Assembly (NCBI RefSeq): GCF_900091625.1
Contig: NZ_FMIC01000002.1
Span: forward strand, 2,418,001 to 2,482,000
Direction of reading: 5' to 3'
Origin: Micromonospora peucetia
GTDB taxonomy: Bacteria > Actinomycetota > Actinomycetes > Mycobacteriales > Micromonosporaceae
DNA length: 64,000 bases
Shown here: in pieces, positions 24,257 through 55,343 of the stretch
Position numbering within the stretch: position 1 is the stretch's first letter
Layout of the letters: each line of letters starts with the position of its first letter
Notes under the pieces: generated by a model
The model's input: only the letters and a program-made list of their open reading frames with translations
What the model was told of the DNA's origin: nothing
Databases searched by the model: none
Made by a program: the position numbers and the translations under genes

Positions 24257-24296
24257 ATCCCTCAGGCATTCATCGCGACGCAAACATGACGATCGG

Positions 24297-24302
24297 AGAT
24301 TA
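24297..24302 (-). promoter_or_regulatory. putative -10 box for mycP
   Basis: TAATCT on the minus strand, about 40 bases before the mycP GTG and inside the gap after eccC. It suggests that the mycosin gene has its own transcription start with a short leader. Confidence 0.4.
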
Positions 24303-24343
24303 CCGGTTCCTCGCGGCCTTGCGGGCCGTTCCGGGGACACCGG

Positions 24344-28309: not shown

Positions 28310-28411
28310 TCGACCTCCTGACAGCGCTCGGTGACCCGAGCCTGGCTCATGGTAGGTAAAGTCCTGTCGTCCGCGCAGCCACCAACCCTCGCCGAGGATG
28401 GAGACCAGTCG

Positions 28412-40754: not shown

Positions 40755-41372
40755 GTGGCCGCGCGCCTGATCAGCGGCAGGCTCACCGGTCGGCCCGTCG
40801 AGGAGACCGTGGACCTCGGGCGGATCGAGAAGGCGGTCCGCGAGATCCTCATCGCCGTCGGGGAGGACCCGGACCGCGACGGGCTCCAGCAGACCCCGGC
40901 CCGGGTGGCCCGCGCGTACGCCGAACTCTTCGCCGGCCTCCGGGTCGACCCGGCCCAGGTGCTCAGCACCACCTTCGAGGCCAACCACGAGGAGTTGGTG
41001 CTCGTCCGGGACATCGACGTGATGAGCCTGTGCGAGCACCACCTGCTGCCGTTCCGGGGCAGCGCCCACATCGGCTACATCCCGGGCCCGGACGGCCGGA
41101 TCACCGGCCTGTCCAAGCTGGCCCGCCTGGTCGAGGTCTTCGCCCGCCGGCCACAGGTGCAGGAGCGGCTCACCTCGCAGGTCGCCGACCTGCTGATGGA
41201 GCGGCTCGCGCCGCGCGGCGTGGTGGTGGTGCTCGAGTGCGAGCACATGTGCATGGCGATGCGCGGCATCCAGAAGTCGGGTGCCAAGACCATCACCTCG
41301 GCCGTGCGGGGCACCCTCCAGCGCGACGCCAAGTCGCGCGCCGAGGCGATGGCGCTGATCATCCACCGCTGA
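40755..41372 (+). CDS. folE: GTP cyclohydrolase I (first step of folate synthesis)
   Basis: A 205-residue enzyme (from GTG 40755) converting GTP to dihydroneopterin triphosphate. Zinc ligands are in [11 protein letters not shown] (about 94-104) and LECEHMCM (about 158); [20 protein letters not shown] is the signature region. No Shine-Dalgarno sequence precedes this GTG. The frame is open upstream, and a CTG at 40707 with CGGGAG about 10 bases before it would add 16 residues ([16 protein letters not shown]), so the start is uncertain. In most actinobacteria folP follows directly; here 13 kb of secretion-like genes intervene. Confidence 0.9.
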
Positions 41373-41512: not shown

Positions 41513-42265
41513 TCAGCCGGCCAGCATGGCGAGCAGCAGGCCCGCGCTGACCAGCACCCCCGGAACCAGGCACACCAGAGCGCCAAGCCGGGCCGTGCGG
41601 TCCACCCGGCCGCCGTCCGGCGGGGGGAACAACCGGCCGACGCCGATCCAACCCGCCGCGAACGCCACCGCCGGCATCGGCAGCCCGAAGACCAGCGCGG
41701 CCACGCTCGCCACCCCGGTGCCGGTCGCCACGAACAAGGCCACCTGGATCACCGGCACCAGCAGCGCCAGCGGCCCGTACACCAGCAGATTCCGGGGGCG
41801 CGGTGGCCAACCGGCCAGCCGTGGCAGCCCACGCGCGGAGAGCGCCGCGTCCGCGGCTTCCGCCCGGCCACGGGCGGCGCGCAGCGCGGCCAGCACCGCC
41901 GCCGGCCCACCCGCCATCGACCGGGTCGCCTCGGTCAGTTCCGGCGGCGTCGGGACCAGCGAGATCGGCGGTACGCCCCGCTCGCGCAGCCGAGCCTCCT
42001 GCGACGCCAACCGGGTGCGTACGGCGGTCAGCTCCTCGCGGGCGGCCTGCACCGACCGGGCCTGCTCGCCGGCGGCGGTGGTCGCGTCACGGCGTATCCC
42101 GTCGAGTTGGCGGGCGGCGGCGAGGTACTCGGTCCACGCGGCGGACACCGCGTCTGTGTCCGCCCGCCCGCCGTTGTCAGCGCGATCCGGTGCCGGGTCG
42201 GTGCCGGAACGCTGCCGCCCCGGCGTGGCCTGCCCTGACCTGCTCCGTGCCCCGTGGCGGGTCAT
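41513..42265 (-). CDS. coiled-coil membrane protein, partner of the EccC-like protein
   Basis: A 250-residue protein with a disordered, basic N terminus, a long coiled coil at about 45-140 (including QAAREELTAVRTRLASQEAR), and about four hydrophobic helices in the last 95 residues. The ATG at 42265 overlaps the stop of the EccC-like gene (ATGA), so the two are made together and probably interact, the coiled coil reaching the cytoplasmic ATPase-like protein. No family is recognised. It could be the membrane anchor for the EccC-like protein, which itself lacks membrane helices. Confidence 0.65.
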   Translation of the reverse strand: MTRHGARSRSGQATPGRQRSGTDPAPDRADNGGRADTDAVSAAWTEYLAAARQLDGIRRDATTAAGEQARSVQAAREELTAVRTRLASQEARLRERGVPPISLVPTPPELTEATRSMAGGPAAVLAALRAARGRAEAADAALSARGLPRLAGWPPRPRNLLVYGPLALLVPVIQVALFVATGTGVASVAALVFGLPMPAVAFAAGWIGVGRLFPPPDGGRVDRTARLGALVCLVPGVLVSAGLLLAMLAG

Positions 42266-44802
42266 GCCGGCTCCCCCTCCCCGGCGAACGGGACCAGCAC
42301 GGTGCCCTGCTCGCCAGGGCCGTCCCAGAGCATCGCCCGGCCGGGGCGGGGCCGCCACTGCACCTGCCGGCCGAAGACCGACGTGAGCTGCGCGCCCGGC
42401 AGGTCCACCACGGCCACGGCGGCGAGCTTGTCCACCTCGCCCTCCGGTTCCAGCAACGCCGCGAACGACGGCACCGTCCGCCAGCGGCCCAGCAGGTGCC
42501 GGCCGGCGGACGGACCCTCCCGCAACAGCGTGCGTAGCCGCTCCGCAGGCAGTTGCGCCGGCGTCAGCACGTCCAGTCCGAAGACCACCAGGTAGGCCGG
42601 CACGGTGTCGTCCACGGCGGCGAGCAGGCCGGCGAGGTCCACCGTGTCCACCGGGTGCCGCCCGGCCAGCTCGACCGCCAGCGCCCCGGCCAGCGCCCGG
42701 CACTCCTCGTCCGGCGCGGCCAGCACGAAGCGGGCCGTCCCCGGCTCGTGGTGCGCCGCCGTGCTGCGCGCCGCGGTGGCCAACAGCCGGGCCGCCTCCG
42801 GCCCGGGGCCGAGCACGGCCAGGTTGCGCCCCGGCGCCGGCCCGAGCGACACCGCGACGGTGCTCCGCGGCACGTCCAGCGCCCGGCCCAGCAGGGCGGC
42901 GGGACCGGGTGCCTGCCCCGCCAGCGCGGTCCGGTGCCGGGGATCGTTGCGCAGCAGCGGGCGGGCGTAACCGGCGAAGACCACCGGCGGGGTGGCCCCC
43001 TCCGGGCGGGCCGACCAGAGCCGGTGCCGCAGCTCCTCCACCGTGTCGGGATGGTCCTGCGGGTCCGGGAACCGGACCATCCGCTCGTGTCCCCGGATCG
43101 CGCCCCGGGGACCACCCAGCCCACCGGCGGTGTTCACCACCGCGCTGCCCACCGGCAGCCCGGCGGCCGAGTCGTTCGTCGGCTCCAGCACGGCGCCCCC
43201 ACCGGGCAGCGCCACCCGCACCGGGAATTGCCCCAGCACCGAGTCCCGATCGGTACGCGAGCCCAACCCCAGATCGCCCTCGCCGGCCAGCACCAGGTGC
43301 ACCCCGTACGCGCGCCCCGTGCGGGCCAGCGCGTCCAGCCGGGCGGCGGCGTCGACGGCCAGCCGGTCCCGCTCGGCGAAGAGCAGCGGGAGGTTGTCGA
43401 GCACGCAGACCACCCGGGGCATGGCCCGGTGCTGTCGCAGCTCGGCAAAGCGCTGCCCGCCGGCCCGACCGCCCGCCTCCTCGCGCCGCCGTACCTCCGC
43501 CACCAACTCGTCGAGCAGGCTCAGCACGTACTCCCGATCGGCGGCCATCGCGGCGGCCCGGACCTGCGGGATCCACGACCGGTCCCGTTCGGTCTGGAGG
43601 AACTCCACGAAGGACTCGGCGTCGGCGAGATCCGCCAGGTAGAGAGCCAGCTCGTCGGGGCCGTACCGGGCGGTCAGGCCGAGCAGCGCGGTGGTGAGGA
43701 AGGTGGAACGGCCCGCGCCCGAACGGCCGCTGACCAGCCAGTGCGGCGTCAACTCCGTGAAACCGAGCGACACCGGACGGCCACCGGCATCCCCGGCGGT
43801 CGTGGTCAGCCCGCCCACCCCGCTCGCCGTCCACAACTCCTCGTCGGCCGACGGCAGCAGATCGGTCAGCGCCAGCCGGGAACCCGCCTCCACCTGCGCG
43901 GCCAGCCGGCGGCAGACCGCGTCGACGAGCTCGGCCGGCGGATCCGCCTCGATGAACACCGGCGAATTCAACCCGCCCGGAGGATCGGCGCCCGGACCGG
44001 CGAACGACCCGCCCGGCGGGGCACCCAGCAACGCGTACGCGGTGCGGACCGCCAGGGTCGTCGCCTGCGGCAACGGCTCCCGGCCGCCCGCCGGAGACCA
44101 GCCCGCCACGACGAGGTGCAGGCCGGCGGCCCGGCCCGGCTCGGCCAGAGCCTCAATCCGGGCCAGGTCGGTGGGGCCGGTCGCCTCGGGCAGCGCGGCG
44201 ATCACCAGCAGCAGCGTCCGGTCGTGTCGGCGACGCCCACTCGTCCCCGGAGCCACCCACTGCTCGGCTTCGGTGAGCACGGCCCGCAGACCCGCCACGT
44301 CCACCGCTGGAGGCGGCAGCAGACCCGCGTCCGCGAGCGCCGCGAACGGCGCGAGGGCCGTGCCGGTCGCGTCCACCGCGCGTACCAGCAGCGCCCCGGC
44401 CGGGGTCGCCGCCAGCAACCGCAGCAGTACGGCCCGGAGCAACCCCGCCACCCGGGGATCCCGGGCATCGACGTCCACCGAGAGGTGCCCCGTGCCGAGC
44501 AACGGCACCAGTGCGGGAAACCGGGCGTCGTCCAGCGGTGCCGCCGTCCCGATCCGGACGAAGGAAGGCAGCCCCTCACCGGCCGGTGTGGTCGCTGCGA
44601 TCGTCTCCAGAGGGGCGCCTGCCCAGCCGGGGGCCAGCACCGCCGCCGCAGACCGGAGACGATCGGCCAGTTCGTACTGGCGGCGCTGGTCGGCGGGGGC
44701 GGGCCGGGTGTCGTCGAGGACGCCGGCGGCAGCGGTTGCGGTGGCGGCGACCCGCCGGTGCAGTACGGCGGCGCGGCTAGTGCGTGCCTTCGAACCGGCC
44801 AC
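42262..44802 (-). CDS. EccC/FtsK-like three-module protein with degenerate nucleotide-binding motifs
   Basis: An 846-residue soluble protein with three EccC-like modules (about 90-270, 340-570, 640-835). Module 2 keeps the P-loop shape but reads LVSGRSGAGRSTF, with Arg replacing the Walker A Lys, and its Walker B position reads VVCVLDNLPLLF with Asn replacing the catalytic Glu. Modules 1 and 3 lack a P-loop altogether (module 3 has LAVLGPGPEAARLL). The true EccC at 24344-28309 is intact in all these positions. So this is probably a non-hydrolysing substrate receptor or scaffold. The GTG at 44802 is set by GAGGGGG 7 bases upstream. The stop overlaps the membrane partner gene. It lies in the secretion-like block. 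Confidence 0.75.
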   Translation of the reverse strand: MAGSKARTSRAAVLHRRVAATATAAAGVLDDTRPAPADQRRQYELADRLRSAAAVLAPGWAGAPLETIAATTPAGEGLPSFVRIGTAAPLDDARFPALVPLLGTGHLSVDVDARDPRVAGLLRAVLLRLLAATPAGALLVRAVDATGTALAPFAALADAGLLPPPAVDVAGLRAVLTEAEQWVAPGTSGRRRHDRTLLLVIAALPEATGPTDLARIEALAEPGRAAGLHLVVAGWSPAGGREPLPQATTLAVRTAYALLGAPPGGSFAGPGADPPGGLNSPVFIEADPPAELVDAVCRRLAAQVEAGSRLALTDLLPSADEELWTASGVGGLTTTAGDAGGRPVSLGFTELTPHWLVSGRSGAGRSTFLTTALLGLTARYGPDELALYLADLADAESFVEFLQTERDRSWIPQVRAAAMAADREYVLSLLDELVAEVRRREEAGGRAGGQRFAELRQHRAMPRVVCVLDNLPLLFAERDRLAVDAAARLDALARTGRAYGVHLVLAGEGDLGLGSRTDRDSVLGQFPVRVALPGGGAVLEPTNDSAAGLPVGSAVVNTAGGLGGPRGAIRGHERMVRFPDPQDHPDTVEELRHRLWSARPEGATPPVVFAGYARPLLRNDPRHRTALAGQAPGPAALLGRALDVPRSTVAVSLGPAPGRNLAVLGPGPEAARLLATAARSTAAHHEPGTARFVLAAPDEECRALAGALAVELAGRHPVDTVDLAGLLAAVDDTVPAYLVVFGLDVLTPAQLPAERLRTLLREGPSAGRHLLGRWRTVPSFAALLEPEGEVDKLAAVAVVDLPGAQLTSVFGRQVQWRPRPGRAMLWDGPGEQGTVLVPFAGEGEPA

Positions 44803-44984
44803 GCGTCCACCCCCTCTGCCCGAGGTTGGCAACCCCTCCCCGCGCAGAGACCGTAACCCAGGCAGGCCTGCTCGGCCGGGATGCGCGGCGGCACTGCGCC
44901 GGTGATGTCGTGGAACTCACCGATGGGGACTGGTCCGTCACGATCCGCTGGATCTGGGGCATTGGGTCAATCGCGTCCAGCCGC

Positions 44985-44990
44985 TAGCCT
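44985..44990 (+). promoter_or_regulatory. putative -10 hexamer for the plus-strand VirB8-like gene
   Basis: TAGCCT lies 6 bases before the GTG at 44997, in the gap from the divergent EccC-like gene. Confidence 0.4.
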
Positions 44991-44996
44991 CAGAGG

Positions 44997-45560
44997 GTGG
45001 AATCAGTGCAGCCCTCCGCCGGTTCCCAGGTCTCCCGCGTACCGGCGCAACGGCCCCCCTCCGACCACCTGGCGCCGCCCTCGCCGGCCCCGGTGCCGCA
45101 GCGGCCACGGCGGCGGCTTCGCACCGTGTTCACCGTGGTGGCGAGCGTCGTCGTGGCACTCTGCCTCGGCGGGGTGGCCGCCGGATACGTGCTCTACAAC
45201 CGAGCCGCGGCACCGGACCGTGGTTCTCCGGACGTCGCGGTCGTCAACTACCTGCAGGCCGCGCTTGTCTCGCGTGACCAGAACCGGGCTCTGCTATTCA
45301 CCTGCGATGGCTCGCTACCATCGATTGATGATCTGCGAGCCCAGATCGAACGACGCGAGCAGGAGTTGGGCACCAGCTTTTCGATCAACGTCGAAAGCAT
45401 CGTGGTAGCCATGAACGGCTCGTCGGCGGCTACGGTCACGGCGGTTATCCGGCGTAGCGCTTCCGTCGATGGGGTGCAACAGAGCCTCACCGACCCATGG
45501 CGTTTCGAGGTACAAGACACAGACGGTTGGCGAGTCTGTGCTGGATCGATGGTCAGCTAA
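44997..45560 (+). CDS. membrane-anchored NTF2/VirB8-like extracytoplasmic protein
   Basis: A 187-residue protein with a proline-rich cytoplasmic N terminus, one membrane helix at about 43-67 (TVFTVVASVVVALCLGGVAAGYVLY) and an outer domain of about 110 residues. The outer domain reads like an NTF2/Rv0361-type accumulation-associated fold (VVNYLQAALVSRDQNRALLF, and an ending LTDPWRFEVQDTDGWRVC). Two cysteines may form a disulfide. It is the only plus-strand gene in the secretion-like block and is convergent by 4 bases with the next gene. Function is unknown; a structural role beside the other VirB8-like protein is a guess. Confidence 0.6.
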   Translation: MESVQPSAGSQVSRVPAQRPPSDHLAPPSPAPVPQRPRRRLRTVFTVVASVVVALCLGGVAAGYVLYNRAAAPDRGSPDVAVVNYLQAALVSRDQNRALLFTCDGSLPSIDDLRAQIERREQELGTSFSINVESIVVAMNGSSAATVTAVIRRSASVDGVQQSLTDPWRFEVQDTDGWRVCAGSMVS

Positions 45561-45564
45561 GGCG

Positions 45565-46167
45565 TCATTCAATCCAGAGTAGATGCACCGGAACCTCCAG
45601 CGTCGTCGGCGACTGGCCCCGCCAGACCCAGCGGTACCAATCCATCTCCGGCGTTACCCGAATGCAGATGTCGCCTTCCGCACCCGAGTAGGTCTCGGTG
45701 ACGGCTCGCAGGTCCCGATGTTCGACCGACTCTGCGACGTGCACCACCCGGCGACCAGTGACGGCATCCGCCTCGAAGACCGGGGTTGGCTTGCGGTGTG
45801 TCGGCGCGTCCAGGGAGACCAGGCGGGCGTCCGTCTCGTGGCCCCCCGACGCGTCCGCCCGCCGGGCCCCTACCGTCTCCACCCAGACCCGTTCGACCGG
45901 GACCAGCGGCGCGAAGACCTCCACCTGGTCGGACTCTGCCCGGTACCACTCGTGCTCAGGGATCACCGGCACGTAGGTCCGACTGCCCTGCACCACCCGA
46001 TCGTCGGCGCGAAGGTCTCCGCGCCAGCCCAGTCCGGGCAGGCCAACCAGCACCCGCTGTCCCCGTAGCTCGACGCGGCCGGTGGCCGGCACGATCTCGA
46101 TCGGTCGGGGCGGGCGGGGAGCCCAGTCCGGCTGGTCGGCGAACGGGTCGGGAAGCGGCTCGTTCAT
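45565..46167 (-). CDS. unknown conserved-looking cytoplasmic protein in the T4SS-like block
   Basis: A 200-residue protein without signal or membrane helix. It starts with an acidic proline-rich segment (NEPLPDPFADQPDWAPRPPRP). The rest is mostly beta (RVELRGQRVLVGLPGLGWRGDL and a later PEMDWYRWVWRG), with several tryptophans. The ATG at 46167 lies 13 bases after the cell-wall hydrolase stop, so it is the last gene of that operon. No family is recognised. It might be an accessory or immunity-like partner, but nothing in the sequence shows it. Confidence 0.55.
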   Translation of the reverse strand: MNEPLPDPFADQPDWAPRPPRPIEIVPATGRVELRGQRVLVGLPGLGWRGDLRADDRVVQGSRTYVPVIPEHEWYRAESDQVEVFAPLVPVERVWVETVGARRADASGGHETDARLVSLDAPTHRKPTPVFEADAVTGRRVVHVAESVEHRDLRAVTETYSGAEGDICIRVTPEMDWYRWVWRGQSPTTLEVPVHLLWIE

Positions 46168-46180
46168 GACAGCGAACGTC

Positions 46181-47347
46181 TCATCCTGCGCCTTTGAGCG
46201 GCGCGCCGCGCGACCGCATGAACGGCACCGGGTCGATGGCACCCCGGCTGCTCCGGTCCTCGTCTTTGTGTACCTCGTAGTGCAGGTGCGGGCCCGAGGA
46301 GTTGCCGCTGCTGCCCACCTCGCCGATGACTACACCTGCCTCGACGAGTTGGCCGACATTGACTCGGGGCTTGCTCACCATATGGCAGTAGCGGGTGACA
46401 AACCCGCCGGCGTGCAGGACGTCAACGAACCAGCCGCACCCTCCCTTGTTTGGCCAGCCGTCTACGTCACAGGTTCGTCCGCCACGATTGTCAGGGTCGC
46501 AGTGGGCCACCAGGACGCGGCCGGTGGCAGCGACCCGGATGTCGGTGCCCTTCGGGGCGGCGATGTCGACCCCGTTGTGGGCGGGGCGGTCCGCAGTGCG
46601 GAAGCCCGAGCCGACTCCGCCCGGTATAGGAGCCGTCCAGCCCGAGGCGGCGATCTGCCCTTCGGCGGCGCTGTCACACGTCTGCTTCCCTCCGGCCAGC
46701 GTGATCCGTGCGGCCCCACCGGCCAGCGCGCTGACGATCCGGGCGGCAACGTCCTCGTGCTTGGCGTACGCATCGGGAAATGCGCTGATCTGCACCGCCT
46801 GCGCGGCCCGGCTCAGCGGCATCGTTTCCCAGCCGGGAACCCGGACCAGCTTTTCGTAAAACTTCCGGGCGGCGTACTCGGGCGTCATCCGCTGCGTCAC
46901 ACTTCCCCAACTCGCCCGCTGTTGGAACAGGCCGACGGAGTCGTGGTCGGCGCCGATGCCCTCGTTGGGTATGGTCTCGGACTCGCTGACGGTCCGATTT
47001 GCCAGATTGAGAAGTCTGGACTCCTGCAGGGCAGTCGCCACGGCAATCACCCATCCGCGGGGGGAAACCTTCATCTCCTGCCCCACCTTGATAATCCTGG
47101 CGGCATTGCGGAGTTGACGTTCACCGTACTGGGGTATTCGCGGCATTTCGCCTACTATGTTTACCTGAGTGTCTTCCTTGCAGTCCTGATTAGCCAGTGT
47201 CATACCGTTAGCGGACTCGCCGCCCAGTTCTGTGAGGAAGAAGGCGCCGGCGCCGCCGGTGCAGCAGAGCAGGGCGAGCGTCGCCGTCAACGCGGCGGCC
47301 AGGGAGCCGAGCCGGAGCTGTCGGCGAGGTCGGGTCTCGTCGCTCAT
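46181..47347 (-). CDS. bifunctional cell-wall hydrolase: lytic transglycosylase-like plus M23 peptidase (VirB1-like)
   Basis: A 388-residue protein with an N-terminal membrane anchor (about 13-38). A lysozyme-like domain at about 70-190 contains IAVATALQESRLLNLANR with the candidate catalytic Glu and the SVGLFQQR motif. A LytM/M23 endopeptidase domain at about 225-375 has its zinc ligands in HNGVDIAAPKGTD and GPHLHYEV. Pairing a glycan-cleaving with a peptide-cleaving domain is typical of the VirB1-like hydrolases that open the wall for Gram-positive type IV secretion. The ATG at 47347 overlaps the stop of the VirB8-like gene. The two Cys in GGRTCDVDGWPNKGGCGW may make a local disulfide. Confidence 0.82.
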   Translation of the reverse strand: MSDETRPRRQLRLGSLAAALTATLALLCCTGGAGAFFLTELGGESANGMTLANQDCKEDTQVNIVGEMPRIPQYGERQLRNAARIIKVGQEMKVSPRGWVIAVATALQESRLLNLANRTVSESETIPNEGIGADHDSVGLFQQRASWGSVTQRMTPEYAARKFYEKLVRVPGWETMPLSRAAQAVQISAFPDAYAKHEDVAARIVSALAGGAARITLAGGKQTCDSAAEGQIAASGWTAPIPGGVGSGFRTADRPAHNGVDIAAPKGTDIRVAATGRVLVAHCDPDNRGGRTCDVDGWPNKGGCGWFVDVLHAGGFVTRYCHMVSKPRVNVGQLVEAGVVIGEVGSSGNSSGPHLHYEVHKDEDRSSRGAIDPVPFMRSRGAPLKGAG

Positions 47348-47901
47348 TTCTGCTCCCAGTCCACCGTATCCACCAGCCACCGCCCGTCGGGCGCCACCAG
47401 TTCGAGGCGGAGCCGTCCCGTGTCCAGCGGGACCAGCACCTCGACGAAGTTCTCGGCCCGGGGCCGGAGCGTGACCTTGCCGTCCACCTGCCCGGCCGGC
47501 ACCCCCGACGGATCGACGCCGGCCAGCTTGTCGATCAGCGCCGGGGTCGACAAGGAATGCAGGCCCTCCTGCCACCGCTCCGCCGTGATGCCCGGCTTGC
47601 CGAGCCAGGCGGTGACGAAACGGGCGGCGGTCTGCTCCGGCGTGAGATCGCCCGGGCGGGTGATCGGAGAGGGCGGAGCGCCGGTCGAGAACGCCCCGTC
47701 ATCACCGGTGGTCGGGGCGACCGTCGTGATCGGTCGGCTCGGGCGGTTGCTGAGCCCGGACGTGGAATCGCCGGGTCCGGACACCAACTGTGCCGCCCCG
47801 ATGATCCCGAACACGAGGACGGCGATGCCGATGGCGATGCCGAGCCGGGATCGAAGCACCCGGGTGAACAGAAATTCGACTGCCCGCCGCACCGCACTCA
47901 C
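47344..47901 (-). CDS. VirB8/TcpC-like membrane-anchored protein
   Basis: A 185-residue protein with one membrane helix (about 20-42, LGIAIGIAVLVFGIIGAAQLV), a low-complexity Ser/Thr/Pro linker to about 80, and an outer domain of about 100 residues (DLTPEQTAARFVTAWLG, then SLSTPALIDKLAGV, and VEVLVPLDTGRLRLELVAPDGRWLVD). This order and secondary-structure pattern resemble the NTF2-like domains of TcpC and VirB8 that form the core of conjugation channels. GTG start overlapping the VirB6-like stop, and a stop overlapping the hydrolase start, show tight coupling. Assignment is by context and shape, not by a definite motif. Confidence 0.6.
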   Translation of the reverse strand: MSAVRRAVEFLFTRVLRSRLGIAIGIAVLVFGIIGAAQLVSGPGDSTSGLSNRPSRPITTVAPTTGDDGAFSTGAPPSPITRPGDLTPEQTAARFVTAWLGKPGITAERWQEGLHSLSTPALIDKLAGVDPSGVPAGQVDGKVTLRPRAENFVEVLVPLDTGRLRLELVAPDGRWLVDTVDWEQK

Positions 47902-49838
47902 CGCGCCTCGGAGCGGATCCGCGGAGTGGGCCGGTCAGGCTCGCGTTTCGCGGACCCAGGACGGTAGATGACGAACGAGGGGTTCTCGTCCGGCACGTCC
48001 GGCTCTGTCCAGGTGGCTGGCTGGCGCCGTCGGGGCTGGGGCGCGACCGGGCGGGAGGTGCCCCGGTCCTCGGCCGGCGTCGCCTTCTCGGCGGGCTGCT
48101 CGCGGCCGTCGGGCCGCTGCCGCTCCTCACCTCCGCTGCGGGTGGCGGCGTGCGCCGGATCCTCCCGCCGGGCCTCCGGCCGCAGGGTGGTCTGCTCCGC
48201 CACGACGCCACGGCGTCGGCCCATCGCCGGCTCGGCCGTGCCGCCGGGTTCCGCCACGTCGAGCCTCGCTGCGGTGCGCATGTCCCGGAAGAAGCGCCGG
48301 TGCCACGAGCCGGCCGAGCCGACCGCCTCGCTGCTGTCCTTGCCGCCGAGTTGGGTGATCCGCCGGTAGGGGCGCAGCAGCAGCCAGCCGACCACGCCGC
48401 AGAGCCAGACCAGCACCACCTGGAGCCAGCCGGGCAGGGTCGGCGTGCTCATGATGAGGTCGACCGCGAAGAGGTAGATGGCTGCGCCGGTGCCGAAGAT
48501 GGCGATGTTGAAGACGGCCGCCACCACCGCGTTCGCCAACCGCCGCAACCCGGCGCTGGCGGGACGCATCAAACCCACCGTGCCGAGGATCGGCGCGGCG
48601 ATCACCGCCCAGCGGAAGATCAGGAAGCCCAGCAGCACCAGCAGCGAGGCGGTCAGGTCGAACATGGCGAAGAGCACGGCGGCCAGCACCGCGATGAACC
48701 CGGCCCCCACCCGGTCCATGTCCCGGACTCCCTGGAGGTACTCGTACGCCTCCGGGTCCTCTTCTTTGATCTGCTCAGCCACCTTCATCCACTGCTGCTG
48801 CTTCGCCTCGATGGTGGCCTGCCGTGTTGCTGGATTGGCGCGGATCGACTGCGCCTCGCCCCAGGTCAAAGACCGCGCGTCGTACAGCGCCGGGCCGTAT
48901 TTCTTGGCGGTTTCGTTGTCAGCCGATCCGAGAACGCCCCGCAGCCAGTTCCGGTACAGCATGGACTCGGTAGCGGTGTCGCTGGCTCGGACGGCGGGTG
49001 CACGGTTGTCCTTGCATCGCTCCGGATCGGGGTCGATGCACCGGCCGGGCGCAGGTTCCTTAACCTGCGGGCCGACCGCGTCGTGCACCACGCCCAGGGT
49101 GGTGATGAGGGTGCCGTCGGCGATGTTGGCCGACTTGACCGGCCAGGCGGCCAGGGCGGTCACCGCAACCATCACCAGCAGGGCCCAGCCCGCCGTGGTC
49201 ATCGCGTTGCTCATGTCCGACTGGCGGGAGCGCCAGAGCAGGTACAGCCCGACCACGCAGAGCGTGACGATGCCGAAGACGCTGAACACCTTCTGGTAGA
49301 CGGCCTTGGTCGCCTGGTCGACAAGCGGGTCGGCCCAGCCCCACATCGACCGCGGATCCCAGGCGCGCTCGCGCAGTGCGTTGGAAGCGCCGATCACCGC
49401 AGTGGCAATCATGAACTCGCCATTAGCGACAGTGGTGGTGAACTTGTAGTCGGGATGGAGCACGGTTGAAGCGCAACCGATGTCGTATGTCGTGTAGCTG
49501 TACCCGGCATATCCATAGAGGCTGTATCTGCCGGTGATGCCGGTGGAGGATTCCGGCGGTGAACTGGCAAACCAGCCGGCTAGGCCGGCATCGGGAGCCC
49601 CGGGCGTTGGTGGCTCAAGGCATTCCGCCCGGGCTGCCGACACATCCTTGAGCTTGCCGACGCAGGCGCGGAAGTCGGCCTGCCACTCCGGCGTGGTGCA
49701 GAGGTCGGCGTTGGCCTGGGCTGTCAGCGGGTTCGGGCCGGCTGCTGTGGCGCCGACGGCCGGCCAGCCGATGGTGGCCCCGGCGAGTACGCCGAGCGCG
49801 AGCAGGAACGCCGCCAACCGTGCCCGGGCCCGCGCCAT
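47898..49838 (-). CDS. VirB6/TrbL-like polytopic membrane protein
   Basis: A 646-residue protein. A signal-peptide-like N terminus (to about 34) leads to an outer region of about 130 residues with several Cys. Hydrophobic helices lie at about 175-200 and 205-230, and after a helical charged loop (about 290-370) a cluster of about five more (FIAVLAAVLFAMFDLTASLL onward, to about 490). A disordered cytoplasmic tail of about 150 residues follows. This is the layout of TrbL/VirB6 channel proteins of Gram-positive type IV systems. The ATG at 49838 is 1 base beyond the VirB4-like stop. Sequence motifs are weak; the call rests on topology and operon. Confidence 0.7.
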   Translation of the reverse strand: MARARARLAAFLLALGVLAGATIGWPAVGATAAGPNPLTAQANADLCTTPEWQADFRACVGKLKDVSAARAECLEPPTPGAPDAGLAGWFASSPPESSTGITGRYSLYGYAGYSYTTYDIGCASTVLHPDYKFTTTVANGEFMIATAVIGASNALRERAWDPRSMWGWADPLVDQATKAVYQKVFSVFGIVTLCVVGLYLLWRSRQSDMSNAMTTAGWALLVMVAVTALAAWPVKSANIADGTLITTLGVVHDAVGPQVKEPAPGRCIDPDPERCKDNRAPAVRASDTATESMLYRNWLRGVLGSADNETAKKYGPALYDARSLTWGEAQSIRANPATRQATIEAKQQQWMKVAEQIKEEDPEAYEYLQGVRDMDRVGAGFIAVLAAVLFAMFDLTASLLVLLGFLIFRWAVIAAPILGTVGLMRPASAGLRRLANAVVAAVFNIAIFGTGAAIYLFAVDLIMSTPTLPGWLQVVLVWLCGVVGWLLLRPYRRITQLGGKDSSEAVGSAGSWHRRFFRDMRTAARLDVAEPGGTAEPAMGRRRGVVAEQTTLRPEARREDPAHAATRSGGEERQRPDGREQPAEKATPAEDRGTSRPVAPQPRRRQPATWTEPDVPDENPSFVIYRPGSAKREPDRPTPRIRSEAR

Positions 49839-49839
49839 G

Positions 49840-52800
49840 TCACGCCTCCATGTTCGGCAGGATGGCCGGCAGTACCCCGGCCGCCGCGGCGATCGCGGCG
49901 GGGGTGGTGTCGAGGTGGTCCAGCAGCCCGTCGACGTACGAGACGTCGACCCGGACCTTCTGCACCCGGCCGTCGACGTCCCGCATGACGAACTCCCGGA
50001 AGCCGAGCCGGACCGCGCTGGTGGCGTCTGCGGTGGAGAGGGAGGCCAGGGTGGCCTCGTAGCCGTCGTTGACCGGCACCCGCAGCAGGCGCAACGCTTC
50101 GGAGGCGATCTCCGCGTCCTCGGCGATCCGGCCGACGAAGACGGTCGAGACCAGGTTCTGTACGTCGAGGCCGAGGATGTCGCGGGGGTTCTGCGAGGCC
50201 ACCAGCGCGGCGAGGTTCCACTTGCGGGAGTCACGCGCGAGCCGGACCAGGAACGACCGACCCGAACGCCACCCCTCCATGAAGTGCGCCTCGTCCAGGC
50301 CGACCAGCTTCCGCGATGACATCGAGCCGCCGTAGCAGCGGCGTACGGCGAGCCGGTGCGCGGTGTGCAGCATCGGCAGGGCCAGCGCCTCTTCGGCGGA
50401 CCAGTACTCGCGTTCGATCTTGAGGTCGGGCAGTCGCAGCCCGGCCATGGTGATCACGGTGAGTGCGGCGTCCGCGCCGAGCAGCCCCTCCGGCGGCCGG
50501 CCGAAGAAGAGCATGGCCAGCGGCATCTCGGCGGTGTCCAGCAGCAGGTTGGCGAGTTCCTTGCCGGCGTCGTCGTCGAGCTGGCTGAGGCAGGCGACCA
50601 CATCGTCCAGGGTGGAGTTCTCCTCCGCCGGCACCTGGCGTACGGCGTGCCGGAAGAGGGTGGCGGTGGACGCCTCGCGGGCGACCTGTGGGGGCACCAG
50701 CATCATGCAGATGTCCTGCACCAGCATCCGCCGCTCGGCGCGGGCGTTGGAGATCGCGATCTCGAACTCCCGGTCCCCCGCCGCCCCGGTGCCGAACTCG
50801 CTTCGCAGCGGCGTCGGAATGAGCGAGTACGGGGCCAGGGTGCCGGGCTCGGAGCCGGTCAGGTTCAGCACCCGCGAGTATGGCCGCAGTTCCGGCATGG
50901 CGCAGAGCCGGGCGAGCGGGCCGGACGGGTCGAGCAGTGTCACCTGGACCCCGCGTCGAGCCGCGAGGTAGCCGAGCGCACCGAGCAGGGTGGACTTGCC
51001 GCCGCCCGGTTCGGCGACGAAGACGGCGAGCCCGGAGCGTTCGCGTACTTCCATCGGGAAGTGCAGGTCGAGGAAGACAGGCCGGCGGCAGGTGCCGGCG
51101 GTGCGCCCGATGAGGTCGCCGCGCCGGTCGCCGACGGTGGAGGCGGCCTGCGGGAGCGCGGCGGCGAGCAGGTTGACCGGCATCCGCCGGACGTAGCCGG
51201 TGTTGGCGATCGGCTCGCCGGGGATGAACTCGCGGGCCAGCCAGTCCTGGTTTTTCGGGTGTTGCAGCGAGATCCGCAGCTCGCGGGCGTAGAGCTGGAT
51301 CAGCCGGCGGGCCCGCTCCAGGCACTCCTCGCGGTTGCGACCGCCGACGGCGAGCCGGTGCCAGCCGTGCGCGCGGGCGGAGTCGACCGGCAGCCCGGTG
51401 GTCATCTCGTCGCCGATCACCAGGGCCCGCTTGGCCAGCCGCTCCAGCTCGGGCGGGGCGTCGATGCCGTGTTCCGCGTAGTCGAGCTGTTGGGAGCGGA
51501 TCATCCGCAGCCGGTGTTCGAGGTTGCGGAAGGAGTCGCCGGAACCGAGGATGTCGACCCGGGTGGAGAGCTCCATGGGCCAGGGCAGCCGCTCGTGGAA
51601 GTGCAGCCAGGGCTCGTGCCGCTCGGGGATCTCCAGTGGCTCCATCCGGCCGACCGCCAGCACGGCGACGTGCCGCTCCTCGCCGGTCATCCGGTTGACC
51701 AGCTTGACGGTGGAGCCGTACGGGCTGCGGTAGCGCTCGACCTGCTCGGTGAGGGCGAGCAGGTCGCCGCGTTCCCACTGCCCGTCGGTGAGCGGGGAGA
51801 GCTCGCCGGGCGGCGCCATGCAGAGCGCCACCGAGCGGTAGAGCAGCCACTCCAACTCCTGTGCGGTGACCCGCCGGCCGCGCATGCCGAACGCGCCCAG
51901 CACCTCGTCGAACTGCTCGACGGTGCGGCCGAGCTTGCGGCGCTCACCTTCGGCCACGCCCCGGCCGAAGGTGCGCAGCACCCGCTCGGTGAGCGAGTCG
52001 CCGAGGGACCGCCGGGCGAAGGTGACGCCGAGGTAGGTCTGCCCCTCGGCGTGGTTGACCGAGAGCAGGTGCCGCTGCGCGGCCACCAGGTGGTCGCCCC
52101 AGCCGGCGGTGCCGGGGACGTCGGGCAGCGGGGCGGCGGTGTGCGCGTCGATGGTGCGGGCCCACTCGTCGGCCGGGAAGGGCCGGGTGGTGCGCCGTAG
52201 GTGCAGCCGGAAGCCGGCCAGCCCGGCGTACTGCTCGGAGATTGCCGAGAGCAGCGCCTCCCGTTCCGCGTCGGGCCGGAACGCCCAGCGCACCTCGGGC
52301 AGCCAGTACCAGGCGGTGACGGTGTTCGGGGTGAAGGTGAGGTGGCCGGCGATCTCGGTGATGGCCAGCTCGACCGCCGGGTCCCGGTCGCCGAATTTGA
52401 TCTTCGGCGGCTTGACCCGGACCGGCTTGGTGGGCTGGCTGCGCCGGTCGGCGGAGCGTTGCCGCGGTGGCGCCACCTCCCGGCCGGCCCGCTGCGGCGG
52501 GCGCTCCCTGGTGCGGCCGGGCGCCGGCTCGGGCTCCGGACCCGATGGAGGTGGGTCGAGCGGTGCCGGATGGAACGGCGCCGGGTGGGCCGGTGGCGGT
52601 GCCGCCGCGACGGGCGGCGCGGCCGGCGGCTCCTCGGCCGGCGGGCGGAGCGTGGGCAGCCGGTCCCCGGGCTGGTGCGGCACCCGGGACCGGGCCGGGC
52701 GGGCGGGCGGCTCGTACGCGGCTGCCGGGAGCTGGTCGGACGTCTCCGCCGGGTGTAGCAGGCCGATCGTGTCGGTCGGGTGGTCCGTCCGGTGGCCAAC

Positions 52801-53340
52801 GTCCGCCCGGTGGCCAACGTCCGCCCGGTGGCCAACGTCCGCCCGGTGGCCAACGTCGGTCCGGTGGCCAACGTCGGTCCGGTGGCCAGCGTCGGACTGG
52901 TGGGCCGCGTCGGTCCGGTGGCCCGCCCGTGCGGGCGGCGGCAGGGGGGCGGGAGCCCGCGGGAGCGCCGCTGGGGACGGTGCGGCGGCCGGTTGTTGCG
53001 CGATGGCGGGGTGCTCCCGCCCGGTGGCCCGCTGTGGGGGCGCCGTCGGTCGGGTCGCGCCGGGGCGCGTTCCGCCGAACAGGTCGAGGAAGGGCGAGTC
53101 GATGTCGGCGTTGTCGCCGGTGCCGGCGGGCTGCGGCTCGGCCGGCGGCATCCGGCGTGGTGCCGGACGGGGTGCCTGGAAGACGCCCACGCCGCCGTGC
53201 CCGGGCGTCGTCACCAGGGCCGGGTCGAGGGCGACCTCGTCCGTCTCGGGATCGTTCGGGTAGTCGAACGAGCGCGCACGGTTACCGGGCGGGACGCCTG
53301 GACGTCCGGCCGGGGAACCCGGCGTGGAACTGCGATTCAT
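49840..53340 (-). CDS. VirB4-like ATPase (TraC/SCO6880 type) with long repeat-rich N terminus
   Basis: An 1166-residue protein. Residues 1-310 are disordered and Pro-rich and contain a TDVGHR-type hexapeptide repeat at about 140-185. The remainder is a VirB4/TraC-like engine: helical N-terminal domain, then the ATPase with Walker A VAEPGGGKSTLLG (about 773-785) and Walker B KLVGLDEAHFMEG (about 1010), and ASQNPRDI as the sensor-like motif. Such ATPases power assembly and substrate transfer in type IV secretion. Both nucleotide motifs are intact. The nearest remembered annotation is the SCO6880 family of Streptomyces. ATG start at 53340; the PrgI-like gene is 49 bases upstream and the VirB6-like gene directly downstream. 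Confidence 0.85.
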   Translation of the reverse strand: MNRSSTPGSPAGRPGVPPGNRARSFDYPNDPETDEVALDPALVTTPGHGGVGVFQAPRPAPRRMPPAEPQPAGTGDNADIDSPFLDLFGGTRPGATRPTAPPQRATGREHPAIAQQPAAAPSPAALPRAPAPLPPPARAGHRTDAAHQSDAGHRTDVGHRTDVGHRADVGHRADVGHRADVGHRTDHPTDTIGLLHPAETSDQLPAAAYEPPARPARSRVPHQPGDRLPTLRPPAEEPPAAPPVAAAPPPAHPAPFHPAPLDPPPSGPEPEPAPGRTRERPPQRAGREVAPPRQRSADRRSQPTKPVRVKPPKIKFGDRDPAVELAITEIAGHLTFTPNTVTAWYWLPEVRWAFRPDAEREALLSAISEQYAGLAGFRLHLRRTTRPFPADEWARTIDAHTAAPLPDVPGTAGWGDHLVAAQRHLLSVNHAEGQTYLGVTFARRSLGDSLTERVLRTFGRGVAEGERRKLGRTVEQFDEVLGAFGMRGRRVTAQELEWLLYRSVALCMAPPGELSPLTDGQWERGDLLALTEQVERYRSPYGSTVKLVNRMTGEERHVAVLAVGRMEPLEIPERHEPWLHFHERLPWPMELSTRVDILGSGDSFRNLEHRLRMIRSQQLDYAEHGIDAPPELERLAKRALVIGDEMTTGLPVDSARAHGWHRLAVGGRNREECLERARRLIQLYARELRISLQHPKNQDWLAREFIPGEPIANTGYVRRMPVNLLAAALPQAASTVGDRRGDLIGRTAGTCRRPVFLDLHFPMEVRERSGLAVFVAEPGGGKSTLLGALGYLAARRGVQVTLLDPSGPLARLCAMPELRPYSRVLNLTGSEPGTLAPYSLIPTPLRSEFGTGAAGDREFEIAISNARAERRMLVQDICMMLVPPQVAREASTATLFRHAVRQVPAEENSTLDDVVACLSQLDDDAGKELANLLLDTAEMPLAMLFFGRPPEGLLGADAALTVITMAGLRLPDLKIEREYWSAEEALALPMLHTAHRLAVRRCYGGSMSSRKLVGLDEAHFMEGWRSGRSFLVRLARDSRKWNLAALVASQNPRDILGLDVQNLVSTVFVGRIAEDAEIASEALRLLRVPVNDGYEATLASLSTADATSAVRLGFREFVMRDVDGRVQKVRVDVSYVDGLLDHLDTTPAAIAAAAGVLPAILPNMEA
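52790..52925. repeat. 18-bp tandem repeat in the VirB4-like gene
   Basis: About seven 18-base units (consensus GTCCGCCCGGTGGCCAAC, later units with GGTCCG) encode a six-residue (T/A)DVGHR repeat on the minus strand. The three central units are identical, which implies recent expansion and likely strain-to-strain length variation. Confidence 0.85.
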
Positions 53341-53389
53341 GCGACCGCCTCACCCGTGTCGTTCGACTGCCTGATCGGCGTACGACCGG

Positions 53390-53752
53390 TCATGCCAGTT
53401 CCTCCCGGATCCTGATCCGACTGCCGACCAGGCGGGGGTCCCGCTGTTCCGCGGCCGGCTCCCGGGTCCGCCGCCAGTCGGTCAGCGCGGTGCGGATCAC
53501 CATGCGCGCGGGCCGGTCGGGGTCGACGTACCGGAAGATGAACGAGGTGCTCACGATGGCGAGCGCGATCTCCCAGGCGGGGAAGAGTTCGACCTGCAAC
53601 GTGAACAGCCAGTGGATGAAGATGTAGAGGGGGACGAGCAGCATGAACAGCCCGTACTGGGCGTACGGCAGGTGGACGGGAAGGGTGTAGCCGGGCGGCC
53701 CGAGGTAGACCAGGCGGGCCCGGTAGATGTCGTCGTCGGTGCGCAGCCGCAT
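53390..53752 (-). CDS. PrgI/VirB3-like membrane protein
   Basis: A 120-residue protein with a short N terminus, two closely spaced membrane helices (about 33-50 and 57-75, including LFMLLVPLYIFIHWLF) and a basic cytoplasmic C terminus (TALTDWRRTREPAAEQR). Size and topology match VirB3 and the Gram-positive PrgI family, which always neighbour VirB4. ATG at 53752, 13 bases after the VirB2-like stop. The direct adjacency to the VirB4-like gene is the strongest support. Confidence 0.72.
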   Translation of the reverse strand: MRLRTDDDIYRARLVYLGPPGYTLPVHLPYAQYGLFMLLVPLYIFIHWLFTLQVELFPAWEIALAIVSTSFIFRYVDPDRPARMVIRTALTDWRRTREPAAEQRDPRLVGSRIRIREELA

Positions 53753-53765
53753 CTGGTGCCCGCGC

Positions 53766-54080
53766 CTATTCGAAGATCAGGTCGATCAGGTAGTCGCCGA
53801 TGAAGAACAGTGTGGCGGCTCCGGCGATGAAGGCGAGCCCGACGATCGCGATCGCCGAGCTGGTGAGGACCTTGGAGATCTCACCCCGGCTGGCCCGTCC
53901 GATGAAGATGACGCCCAGCACGGCCAGCAGGATCGGGGCGATCTTGCTGGCGAAGAATGTGACGACACCGTTGGTGTCGATGCCCTTGGGTGCGGGCTCG
54001 GCGAGTGGAGTCGACGCCAGGGCGGAGAGCGTGTGGGTGACGGCGGAAGTGGCCGTCTCCATCAGCTCGATGGCGATCAC
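53766..54080 (-). CDS. VirB2/TrbC-like two-helix membrane protein
   Basis: A 104-residue protein with a roughly 40-residue N-terminal segment, then two hydrophobic helices (about 42-62, FFASKIAPILLAVLGVIFIG, and about 73-98, AIAIVGLAFIAGAATLFFIG) joined by a short basic loop RASRGEISK. This is the shape of VirB2/TrbC pilin-like subunits and of small channel proteins in Gram-positive systems. The GTG at 54080 is set by GGGGAGG 5 bases upstream. It is the first gene of the operon whose promoter is proposed at 54340-54369. Confidence 0.68.
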   Translation of the reverse strand: MIAIELMETATSAVTHTLSALASTPLAEPAPKGIDTNGVVTFFASKIAPILLAVLGVIFIGRASRGEISKVLTSSAIAIVGLAFIAGAATLFFIGDYLIDLIFE

Positions 54081-54339
54081 TGGAACCTCCCCAAGTCGCG
54101 GCCGGCGGCGCCGCGGTGGTGCGTAGGCATGCCTGGCGGGAACGGTGCTCGCTGCGCGCAGTGTCGGCGACCCTGCGTTCGTTACCCACCACGGAGGGTG
54201 GTGAGCTTTGGGCGGATTTTCCCGCTTCGGCCCTCCCTCCAGGCTTCGCCATCTCGATGCCGGGCAGTTCCAAAGCGTACGGGCACCCACTGTTTGCGAC
54301 AAGCCGCGAAGAGTCTGCCCGATTCGACCCGGGCGACCG

Positions 54340-54369
54340 ATCGTACACCCGTTCGAAAGTGCATGTCAT
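54340..54369 (-). promoter_or_regulatory. putative promoter of the T4SS-like operon
   Basis: On the minus strand ATGACA (54369-54364), an 18-base spacer and TACGAT (54345-54340) match the -35/-10 consensus well. It would give a leader of about 250 bases before the VirB2-like GTG. Confidence 0.4.
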
Positions 54370-54410
54370 CGCCAGCTACCCGGCCCGCTCGCGGCGCTCC
54401 GGTCGACCGG

Positions 54411-54416
54411 TACCGT
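54411..54416 (+). promoter_or_regulatory. putative -10 hexamer for leaderless folP
   Basis: TACCGT lies 6 bases before the GTG at 54423. It supports that start over the in-frame ATG at 54363, which has no ribosome-binding site. Confidence 0.4.
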
Positions 54417-54422
54417 CTAGCC

Positions 54423-55343
54423 GTGACCGATCTGGTACGGGCCTCGGCCCCGGTGGTGATGGGCGTCCTCAACGTCACGCCCGACTCCTTCTCCGACGGC
54501 GGACGGTACGCGGACCTCGATGCCGCCGTCGGACACGGCGTGCGGCTGCGGGCCGACGGCGCCCATCTGGTGGACGTCGGCGGCGAGTCCACCCGGCCCG
54601 GCTCCTACCGCGTCGAACCGGAGACCGAGGCGGCCCGGGTGGTCCCCGTGATCCGGGAGTTGACCGCTGCCGGGGTGCCGATCAGCATCGACACCACCCG
54701 CGCGCGGGTCGCCGAGGCGGCCCTCGCCGCCGGGGCGACCGTCGTCAACGACGTCTCCGGCGGCCTCGCCGACCCCGACATGGCCCGGGTGGTCCGCGAC
54801 GCCGGCTGCCCGTGGGTGCTCATGCACTGGCGGGGCCACTCCCGTGAGATGGGGGAGCTGGCCCGCTACACCGACGTGGTCGCCGACGTGCGTGCCGAAC
54901 TGGGCCGCCGGATCGACGAGGCGCTGCGGGCCGGCGTCGCCGCCGACCGCATCGTCATCGACCCGGGGCTGGGCTTCGCCAAGACGGCCGCGCACAACTG
55001 GCAACTGAGCAGCCGCCTGCCCGAGCTGCTGGACCTCGGCTTCCCGCTGCTCTTCGCGTCCAGCCGCAAGTCGTACCTGGGGCGGCTGCTGGCCGGCCCC
55101 GACGGCAGCCCCCGCCCCACGGACGGCCGCGACGTGGCCACCGTCGCCACCAGCCTGCTCGCGGTGGCGGCCGGTGCCTGGGGGGTACGCGTGCACGACG
55201 TCCGGTCGACCGTGGACGCCCTCGCCGTCTGGCAGGCCACGGGCACGCCCCACCTGGCACCCGGGTTCACCGTCGGGGGCCGCCCGGCCCACGCGGGCGC
55301 CGGCCGGGCGGCCCGCACCGCCGAGCACGGAGGAGACCGATGA
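54423..55343 (+). CDS. folP: dihydropteroate synthase
   Basis: A 306-residue TIM-barrel enzyme joining p-aminobenzoate to dihydropterin pyrophosphate; the sulfonamide target. Both signatures are present: MGVLNVTPDSFSDGG (about 13-27) and DVGGESTRPGS (about 48-58), plus ASSRKSYLGRLL near 219. Start taken at GTG 54423. The stop overlaps folB (ATGA), so folP-folB-folK form one operon. folE, its usual upstream partner, lies 13 kb away beyond the secretion-like block. Confidence 0.95.
   Translation: MTDLVRASAPVVMGVLNVTPDSFSDGGRYADLDAAVGHGVRLRADGAHLVDVGGESTRPGSYRVEPETEAARVVPVIRELTAAGVPISIDTTRARVAEAALAAGATVVNDVSGGLADPDMARVVRDAGCPWVLMHWRGHSREMGELARYTDVVADVRAELGRRIDEALRAGVAADRIVIDPGLGFAKTAAHNWQLSSRLPELLDLGFPLLFASSRKSYLGRLLAGPDGSPRPTDGRDVATVATSLLAVAAGAWGVRVHDVRSTVDALAVWQATGTPHLAPGFTVGGRPAHAGAGRAARTAEHGGDR

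Follow-up and report, generated by a model that had tools for sequence, protein, structure and literature searches.

A near-universal type IV secretion-like gene block between folE and folP in the Micromonosporaceae, with a candidate role in the hyphal envelope

In the genome of Micromonospora peucetia we examined a stretch of 64,000 nucleotides (the window), i.e., bases 2418001-2482000 of the larger contig (C2, 7.27 Mb) of a two-contig genome whose other contig, C1, spans 96 kb. Ten genes, denoted X1 to X10, lie there between folE and folP, and seven of them, X10 to X4, almost certainly constitute a real and intact module of the type IV secretion system (T4SS) type. That this block is vertically fixed, and is not an integrative conjugative element (ICE), we regard as virtually beyond doubt. 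The reading that we favor, on balance and with some reserve, is that of a vertically inherited, monoderm-type T4SS without a linked relaxase, which would serve transport across the septum or envelope while hyphae grow or sporulate. These filamentous bacteria appear to have converted a channel for plasmid mating into a permanent organelle.

Components of the block

X10 to X4 form a single minus-strand run (45565-54080) of seven close-packed genes, with successive gaps or overlaps of 13, 49, 1, -4, -4 and 13 bp; the ten genes together are flanked by ftsH-folE on one side and by folP-folB-folK on the other (Table 1). An earlier, sequence-only reading of the window had proposed six consecutive minus-strand genes encoding a T4SS-like set. 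These six, X10 to X5, are real and show the first five of those spacings; the set is now extended by a seventh, X4, which lies 13 bp past X5 and was absent from that reading.

X8 matches the Pfam model AAA_10 with 80.8 bits, above the cut-off, and an alignment profile matched the solved VirB4 structure 4ag5 at E 3e-10. Its GGGKST and LDEAH motifs are invariant in 30/30 aligned family sequences. The best NCBIfam match is TcpF (3.7e-19, below cut-off), and with 68 bits against a cut-off of 1100, X8 is not placed in the TcpF subfamily (NF052333). X7 itself matched no TrbL model in the Pfam scan, and its identification as VirB6 thus rests on a chain of profiles: hhalign gives 99.3% to its counterpart in the family containing Actinomadura (f18, which we take to be the Streptosporangiaceae of GTDB) and 100% to proteins from plasmids and from the Pseudonocardiaceae (f3), and one f18 representative of this counterpart exceeds the Pfam TrbL/VirB6 cut-off. 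In fold comparisons, X6 is closest to PrgL and TraM, with a Foldseek E of 1.2e-3. Because the fold searches of the PDB list many NTF2 proteins other than VirB8, scoring close behind, a VirB8-type fold is by itself unspecific. Residues 73-206 of X5 match the solved muramidase 8b2e (E 1.2e-22) and its C-terminal half is a Peptidase_M23 domain; the H and D of the HxGVD motif and the PHLH motif are kept in 32/32 aligned sequences. The transglycosylase-type and M23 activities proposed from the sequence therefore belong to one protein with both wall enzymes. A relation of X5 to the f18 hydrolase was rejected (hhalign 0.40% for the whole protein, 0.5% for the N-terminal part).

The two smallest proteins are less distinct. 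X9 scores 98.3% and 97.6% in hhalign against the proteins at the same position in Pseudonocardiaceae and on plasmids, respectively, and one plasmid counterpart matches TcpE at E 0.008, below cut-off; kinship with the f18 TcpE domain was discarded at 0.10% (0.08% to the whole f18 protein). X10 has hydrophobic segments at 42-60 and 76-94 and matched no pilin family in Pfam. Its hhalign scores of 57-81% against the same-position proteins of Pseudonocardiaceae, f18 and plasmids are weak, in that one control pair reaches 62%. Of the earlier part calls, then, VirB4 (X8), VirB6 (X7), VirB8 (X6) and the wall hydrolase (X5) stand, the resemblance to VirB6 and VirB8 having been found by profile and by fold comparison, respectively; VirB2 (X10) and VirB3 (X9) are tentative only.

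X4 has an internal repeat score of 58, relative to a shuffled mean of 28, and 0/500 shuffles reach this value. It was found in 31 of 32 Micromonosporaceae loci, and homologues are carried by four of the six Streptomyces records among the plasmid matches listed, which have the related T4SS type. Two such homologues (L092:24418-25053 and L094:18533-19159) each have a primase or partition gene next to them, and the transfer genes are about 10 kb away. The AlphaFold model of X4 was unusable (pLDDT 34), and a 177-aa Pseudonocardiaceae protein was rejected as a relative (hhalign 0.15%).

X3 to X1 have a looser connection to the block. X3, on the opposite (plus) strand, reaches 32.5 bits against the NCBIfam model Rv0361_Cterm, relative to a cut-off of 37; it is matched in 32/32 loci, in one of which (L071) it lies across folP from its usual side. 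Next come X2 and then X1, both minus-strand genes in the direction of folE. X2 matches FtsK_SpoIIIE (5e-17) and EccCa (5e-14, below cut-off), and its profile scores 98% against the EccC of the window, versus 46-83% against plasmid FtsK proteins. No match to X2 was obtained in the fetched stretch of 5/32 loci. Genome G074 keeps X1-X2 beside folP, with no match to X3-X10 between X2 and folP, and this pair is therefore separable from the machine. As a coupling protein of the TcpA/FtsK or VirD4 type, X2 was rejected, being EccC-like, separable and without a tblastn match to the plasmid loci; neither X1 nor X2 is likely to be part of the machine. The degenerate coupling-ATPase motif noted in the sequence-only reading is present in the window, where the Walker A lysine of X2 is an arginine, but it does not extend to several other genera, which retain the lysine. 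A type VII (ESX) cluster at 22889-29812 of the window, about 11 kb before folE, encodes a subtilase, an EccC-like triple-ATPase protein and EccD; it is the EccC of this cluster that X2 resembles.

Table 1. Features of the folE-folP interval, in window coordinates
Feature	Position	Strand	Description
X10	53766..54080	-	VirB2-like small protein, 104 aa, two hydrophobic helices and a short polar loop; tentative
X9	53390..53752	-	PrgI/TcpE/VirB3-like membrane protein, 120 aa; tentative
X8	49840..53340	-	VirB4-type ATPase, 1166 aa, low-complexity N-terminus, core of ~858 aa
X7	47898..49838	-	VirB6/TrbL-like polytopic membrane protein, 646 aa, 7 hydrophobic segments
X6	47344..47901	-	VirB8-like, one membrane helix and NTF2-like domain, 185 aa
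X5	46181..47347	-	VirB1-like wall hydrolase, N-terminal muramidase and C-terminal M23 endopeptidase, 388 aa
X4	45565..46167	-	soluble, two tandem repeats of ~85 aa, 200 aa, matches no known family
X3	44997..45560	+	convergent membrane protein, weakly Rv0361-like; membership uncertain
X2	42262..44802	-	FtsK/SpoIIIE-EccC-like ATPase, degenerate Walker A; probably outside the machine
X1	41513..42265	-	membrane protein paired with X2, three hydrophobic segments; probably outside the machine
folE (GTP cyclohydrolase I), left flank	40755..41372	+	Pfam 7e-77
folP (dihydropteroate synthase), right flank	54408..55343	+	Pterin_bind 2.5e-81 on enclosing ORF; start approximate
TTGTCG-N17-TACGCT	54274..54302	-	promoter-like element, 194-222 nt upstream of X10

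Conservation and inheritance at the folate locus

The X8 core is present in 192 of 200 sampled Micromonosporaceae genomes and in 41 of 44 genera (all genome samples being automatic draws). Of these 192 genomes, 187 have just one match, and identities run from 96% down to 81% among the matches listed. In 32 loci from spread-out genera, X5, X6, X7, X9, X10 and folP were all found within 20 kb (32/32), and folE in 25/32, some stretches stopping short of it. X8 is undercounted by tblastn, which gave no row for it in L111 and L114 though the genome survey found it there. The block lies beside fol genes in every one of the 32; in L069, L113 and L114 folP-folB is inverted as a pair, with adjacency kept. 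The suggestion that the block is fixed in the lineage at folE/folP is thus upheld. The eight genomes with no VirB4 match include G085 and all three sampled members of genus g23 (G023, G054 and G074), a possible natural deletion. In G038, also among the eight, folP lies on a short contig and is still accompanied by X9 and X10; in G094 the contig stops next to folP.

A tree of six block proteins was compared with a tree of FolP, FolB and FolK for 27 of 33 taxa (the window and 26 of the 32 loci, a filter for length and presence having dropped six). At 95% support, 12/12 fol splits are common to both trees and 0/18 T4SS splits conflict, as expected from vertical inheritance; with no support cut-off, 11/24 block splits conflict. 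Patristic distances in the block and fol trees correlate at 0.84. The median dN/dS of X4-X10 ranges from 0.09 to 0.31, versus 0.13-0.26 for folE, folP, folB and folK, in gene sets that leave aside L187, L188, L189, L200 and L221. These five, out of 39 loci bearing the title Micromonospora or Salinispora, had escaped sorting into the Micromonosporaceae group, probably through the same undercount of X8. The block minimum belongs to X9 (0.09), X4 stands at 0.15, and X3 (0.39) and X1 (0.45) are looser. Finally, folE and folP are adjacent in 8/8 outgroup genomes (three Pseudonocardiaceae, three f18 and two of family f2), with 26-163 bp between the matched ends. Because the site is empty there, the block probably entered once and then stayed; most simply, a single insertion into the folate operon preceded the diversification of the Micromonosporaceae.

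Among the ten block ORFs, the Pfam and NCBIfam scans gave no match to relaxase or integrase families (no search for att repeats or distant integrases was made), which agrees with what had been noticed from the sequence. In the 32 family loci, two relaxase queries from this genome (PF03432 type from C1 and TrwC from C2), three VirD4-like and three plasmid FtsK queries gave no tblastn match at E 1e-5; the queries are few, so that distant classes could escape, and both relaxase queries were also blank on three plasmid stretches. A chromosomal FtsK query matched in 4/32 loci, at X2. The flanking of the block by a relaxase or integrase in relatives, which the sequence-only reading had named as evidence for a plain integrative element, was thus not seen for these two relaxase queries; other relaxase classes, integrases and att repeats lay outside the search. 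An ordinary or decaying ICE would account for the kinship with plasmid transfer modules described below, but it would not be expected in the same neighborhood in 32/32 loci and in 192/200 genomes, with intact motifs, under purifying selection, in agreement with the fol trees and without a relaxase or integrase match in the block ORFs. We therefore rejected this explanation as extremely improbable, and the earlier judgment that the block is not an ordinary conjugative element holds.

Relatives on plasmids and in other families

Related VirB4 proteins occur in 120/120 Pseudonocardiaceae and 118/120 f18 genomes. In a class-wide sample searched with a combined profile at E 1e-60, 48 of 394 genomes matched, namely 3 Micromonosporaceae (f1), 2 f3, 40 f18 and 3 elsewhere; family labels in this sample do not cover 326 unmatched genomes outside the listing. 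The order VirB2-B3-B4-B6-B8-B1 is repeated in the 10 Pseudonocardiaceae and 11 f18 loci inspected, which differ from the block in that they occupy other chromosomal places and encode VirB4 proteins with about 39% and 31% identity to X8, respectively. These 21 loci gave no match to two relaxase, three VirD4-like and four FtsK-type queries, nor to X4 or X2. Beyond what the block contains, f18 has TcpC and a TcpE protein that bears a ParA-like domain, and one f18 representative shows clear TcpC, TcpE and TrbL matches, over cut-off. It had been supposed that a resident system of this kind would be new; given these near-universal relatives, and the published cmd cluster of Streptomyces (PMC2782261), the block is not the only such system.

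Plasmid matches comprise 301 records, of which 40 were listed and three inspected. The closest relatives among the matches listed are on linear plasmids of Streptomyces and Nonomuraea (NZ_CP029542, NZ_CP050694 and NZ_CP107854). All three share the order of the block: a small membrane protein, a VirB3-like protein, VirB4 (36-38% identity), VirB6, VirB8 and a wall hydrolase. An X4 homologue is found on both inspected Streptomyces plasmids, with no X4 match on the Nonomuraea stretch. What sets the plasmids apart is an FtsK-type ATPase common to all three (35-43% identity) and ParA genes nearby; in addition, their hydrolases end in NlpC/P60, whereas X5 ends in M23 (by Pfam or annotation). The block is very probably derived from such a plasmid-type transfer module. 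In a VirB4 tree of 42 sequences, which is midpoint-rooted and sparse, the plasmid and f3 proteins form a group that leaves out f1 (support 100), and the f18 proteins belong to a different deep group. This grouping, together with the different chromosomal places, suggests more than one fixation, and independent fixation in several families appears to us the better supported history, with some room for doubt.

TcpC, TcpE and TcpF presumably belong to the Tcp system of pCW3. The likeness to that system lies in the best NCBIfam match of X8 and in the f18 proteins that exceed the TcpC and TcpE cut-offs; the differences are that X8 is far under the TcpF cut-off and that no linked coupling gene or relaxase was found at the block.

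Several observations were made alongside. On the three plasmids (L092-L094) ParA genes stand directly before the transfer genes, and in the f18 locus L140 (10843-13986) the C-terminal part of a TcpE/VirB3-like protein gives a weak match, below cut-off, to a ParA/MinD-like ATPase domain; taken together, these hint at a positioning ATPase for the machine. The f18 loci L075, L077 and L078 are situated near what we take to be a ychF-like GTPase gene, with none seen in L076 and L140. In the Pseudonocardiaceae genome G659 (L139:7339-11481), VirB4 is split at its Walker A motif (GGGK) by a long in-frame insert that contains a LAGLIDADG homing-endonuclease domain, most likely an intein; split VirB4 matches also occur in G618, G627, G656 and G702, the G659 copy alone having been inspected. 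A Pseudonocardiaceae-type locus was found in L228 (JOAA01000056.1), which is titled Rhodococcus rhodnii and may be a mislabelled or mixed assembly.

Possible functions of the block

From its predicted parts, the block probably acts as an envelope channel or pilus. The history that we propose begins with an ancestral Micromonosporaceae cell that would have gained a plasmid membrane and wall module (VirB2-B3-B4-B6-B8-B1 and X4) between folE and folP. DNA-processing and coupling genes do not accompany the module, and the channel, the ATPase and the wall-perforating enzyme would have been kept under selection. X6, X7, X9 and X10 could then build a platform in the membrane, or a short pilus, with VirB4 as the motor, and X5 would open the peptidoglycan for it. 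In the absence of a dedicated coupling ATPase, substrates might be passed on by the machine after a prior export step, as in Ptl, or be handed over via X4. T4SSs without a coupling protein are on record: according to a 2025 review, Ptl exports protein in two steps, Trw possibly makes adhesive pili and ComB takes up DNA, and the VirB system of Brucella also functions without one (PMC12857230).

These precedents bear on two alternatives. In the first, the block would secrete proteins or toxins, i.e., effectors exported to neighboring cells or to the medium. A 2011 survey suggested that relaxase-less T4SSs are often protein exporters (PMC3158045), and the wall hydrolase and VirB4 are present; Ptl and Brucella VirB need no coupling protein (PMC12857230). 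Scans of the ten block ORFs with Pfam and NCBIfam, with no wider effector search, revealed no toxin or immunity family, while X5-X7, X9 and X10 are constant in 32/32 loci and no coupling ATPase is linked; we consider this alternative unlikely. In the second, the block would be a DNA-uptake device like the ComB system of Helicobacter, with VirB4 as its sole ATPase. The lack of a linked relaxase is compatible with this, as is that of a coupling protein, a feature shared with ComB (PMC12857230), but the ten block ORFs matched no competence family (the search did not extend to the rest of the genome or to natural transformation in the Micromonosporaceae), and this idea seems to us very improbable.

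A third alternative is that of a helper channel, which would transfer relaxase-bearing plasmids or integrated elements in trans. Candidate clients are present. The PF03432 and PF08751 matches of the genome lie away from the block, on C1 and at C2:6.69 Mb, and actinobacteria are reported in the 2011 survey to have many relaxases and few T4SSs (PMC3158045). Between 32.4 and 44.7 kb, C1 has genes for a relaxase, a VirD4-like protein, an SCO6880-family protein and a VirB4-like ATPase, the last with about 95% identity to counterparts on plasmids of Micromonospora and Verrucosispora (L232 and L233). A stretch of about 22 kb on C2 (6.69-6.71 Mb) encodes a TrwC relaxase together with an SCO6880-family and a VirD4-like protein, and is probably an integrated conjugative element in its own right. 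The odds of the helper channel are lowered because C1 thus carries a SCO6880-type module with a VirB4-like ATPase of its own, and a second SCO6880 protein is near the chromosomal TrwC. Moreover, the SCO6880 class is accessory in the Micromonosporaceae, being found in 43/101 genomes, versus 192/200 for X8, and deletion of cmd in Streptomyces is reported to have had no effect on plasmid transfer (PMC2782261). We therefore give the helper channel little credence.

The favored reading, i.e., a resident conduit for traffic in the hyphal envelope or septum, leans on the Streptomyces precedent. The cmdABCDEF cluster (SCO4126-4131) is chromosomal, is shared by several Streptomyces species and is related to the transfer genes of SLP2, CmdB being VirB4-like; its deletion led to aberrant branching, defective septation, defects in sporulation and chromosome segregation, and early actinorhodin production (PMC2782261). 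In the same report, whose authors already raised the question of a type IV-like channel, loss of cmd left the transfer of an SLP2-derived plasmid unchanged (data not shown there). Because of this precedent, and because the SCO6880 class is accessory while the fol-linked machine is near-universal in the Micromonosporaceae, we propose a comparable developmental role, in which the block would be a functional counterpart of the Cmd complex. Argued by analogy, a developmental role is a tentative proposal, less probable than not in our estimate. Broader and yet a little more speculative is the possibility that Micromonosporaceae, Pseudonocardiaceae and f18 each independently fixed a different lineage of the VirB2-B3-B4-B6-B8-B1 module, with the cmd of Streptomyces as a fourth class; the shared need might then be a VirB4-driven, wall-penetrating conduit, across or between the compartments of the hypha, that moves cargo other than plasmid DNA in development.

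The region upstream of X10 was inspected for regulatory signals. The pattern TTGT-N19-TA[CG]NCT is present in 36/40 family upstream regions, relative to a shuffled mean of 0.01; having been derived from the same alignment in which it was counted, it indicates conservation, not function. In the window, the element TTGTCG-N17-TACGCT resembles what we take to be a housekeeping sigma-70 promoter. Developmental promoter motifs were counted in 58 upstream regions (shuffled means in brackets): WhiA-like 27 (32), BldN-like 3 (8), AdpA-like 45 (37), BldD-like 6 (1.9) and WhiG 0 (0). No Rfam family matched in the window at gathering scores, and none up to E 5 at 53900-54450.

A number of points weigh against the favored reading. 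Given a promoter that looks housekeeping and the absence of WhiG sites in the 58 regions, nothing marks the block as developmental. Since no block protein matches the SCO6880 family (NF042935), the class that Cmd resembles, the analogy is one of circumstance and does not extend to homology of the parts. For SCO6878 and SCO6881, in a second similar cluster of S. coelicolor, null mutants are cited as an unpublished result without a sporulation phenotype (PMC2782261). The machine is not indispensable, as genus g23 (3/3) and G085 have no VirB4 match, and at 80% support 4/20 T4SS splits conflict with fol splits. As regards the parts, VirB2 and VirB3 are weakly assigned, and the Foldseek match of X6 to VirB8 is short of E 1e-3. 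Finally, no study of, or experiment on, the block locus was found in the open-access literature searched.

The nearest report to the block itself is a lone VirB4-like gene of Micromonospora lupini, described among proteins of unknown function (PMC4182475). The Patescibacteria offer a parallel, in that their T4SSs are widespread, chromosomal, of monoderm conjugative origin, mostly without a relaxase and equipped with VirB2-like pilins; they differ from the block in belonging to another phylum, in a VirB4 of the MPF_FATA clade and in a suggested link to epibiotic life (PMC12102498). The 2025 review names a VirD4-like component for the Saccharibacteria locus and states that VirB2 has not been found among Gram-positive T4SSs except in Patescibacteria (PMC12857230).

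Taken together, these data reveal T4SS-like loci in almost all genomes sampled from each of three families of filamentous actinomycetes. If the block is indeed a developmental organelle, it would help explain the effect of conjugation-like genes on sporulation in Streptomyces, and would provide a tractable, non-pathogenic model of a T4SS that is no longer tied to DNA transfer.

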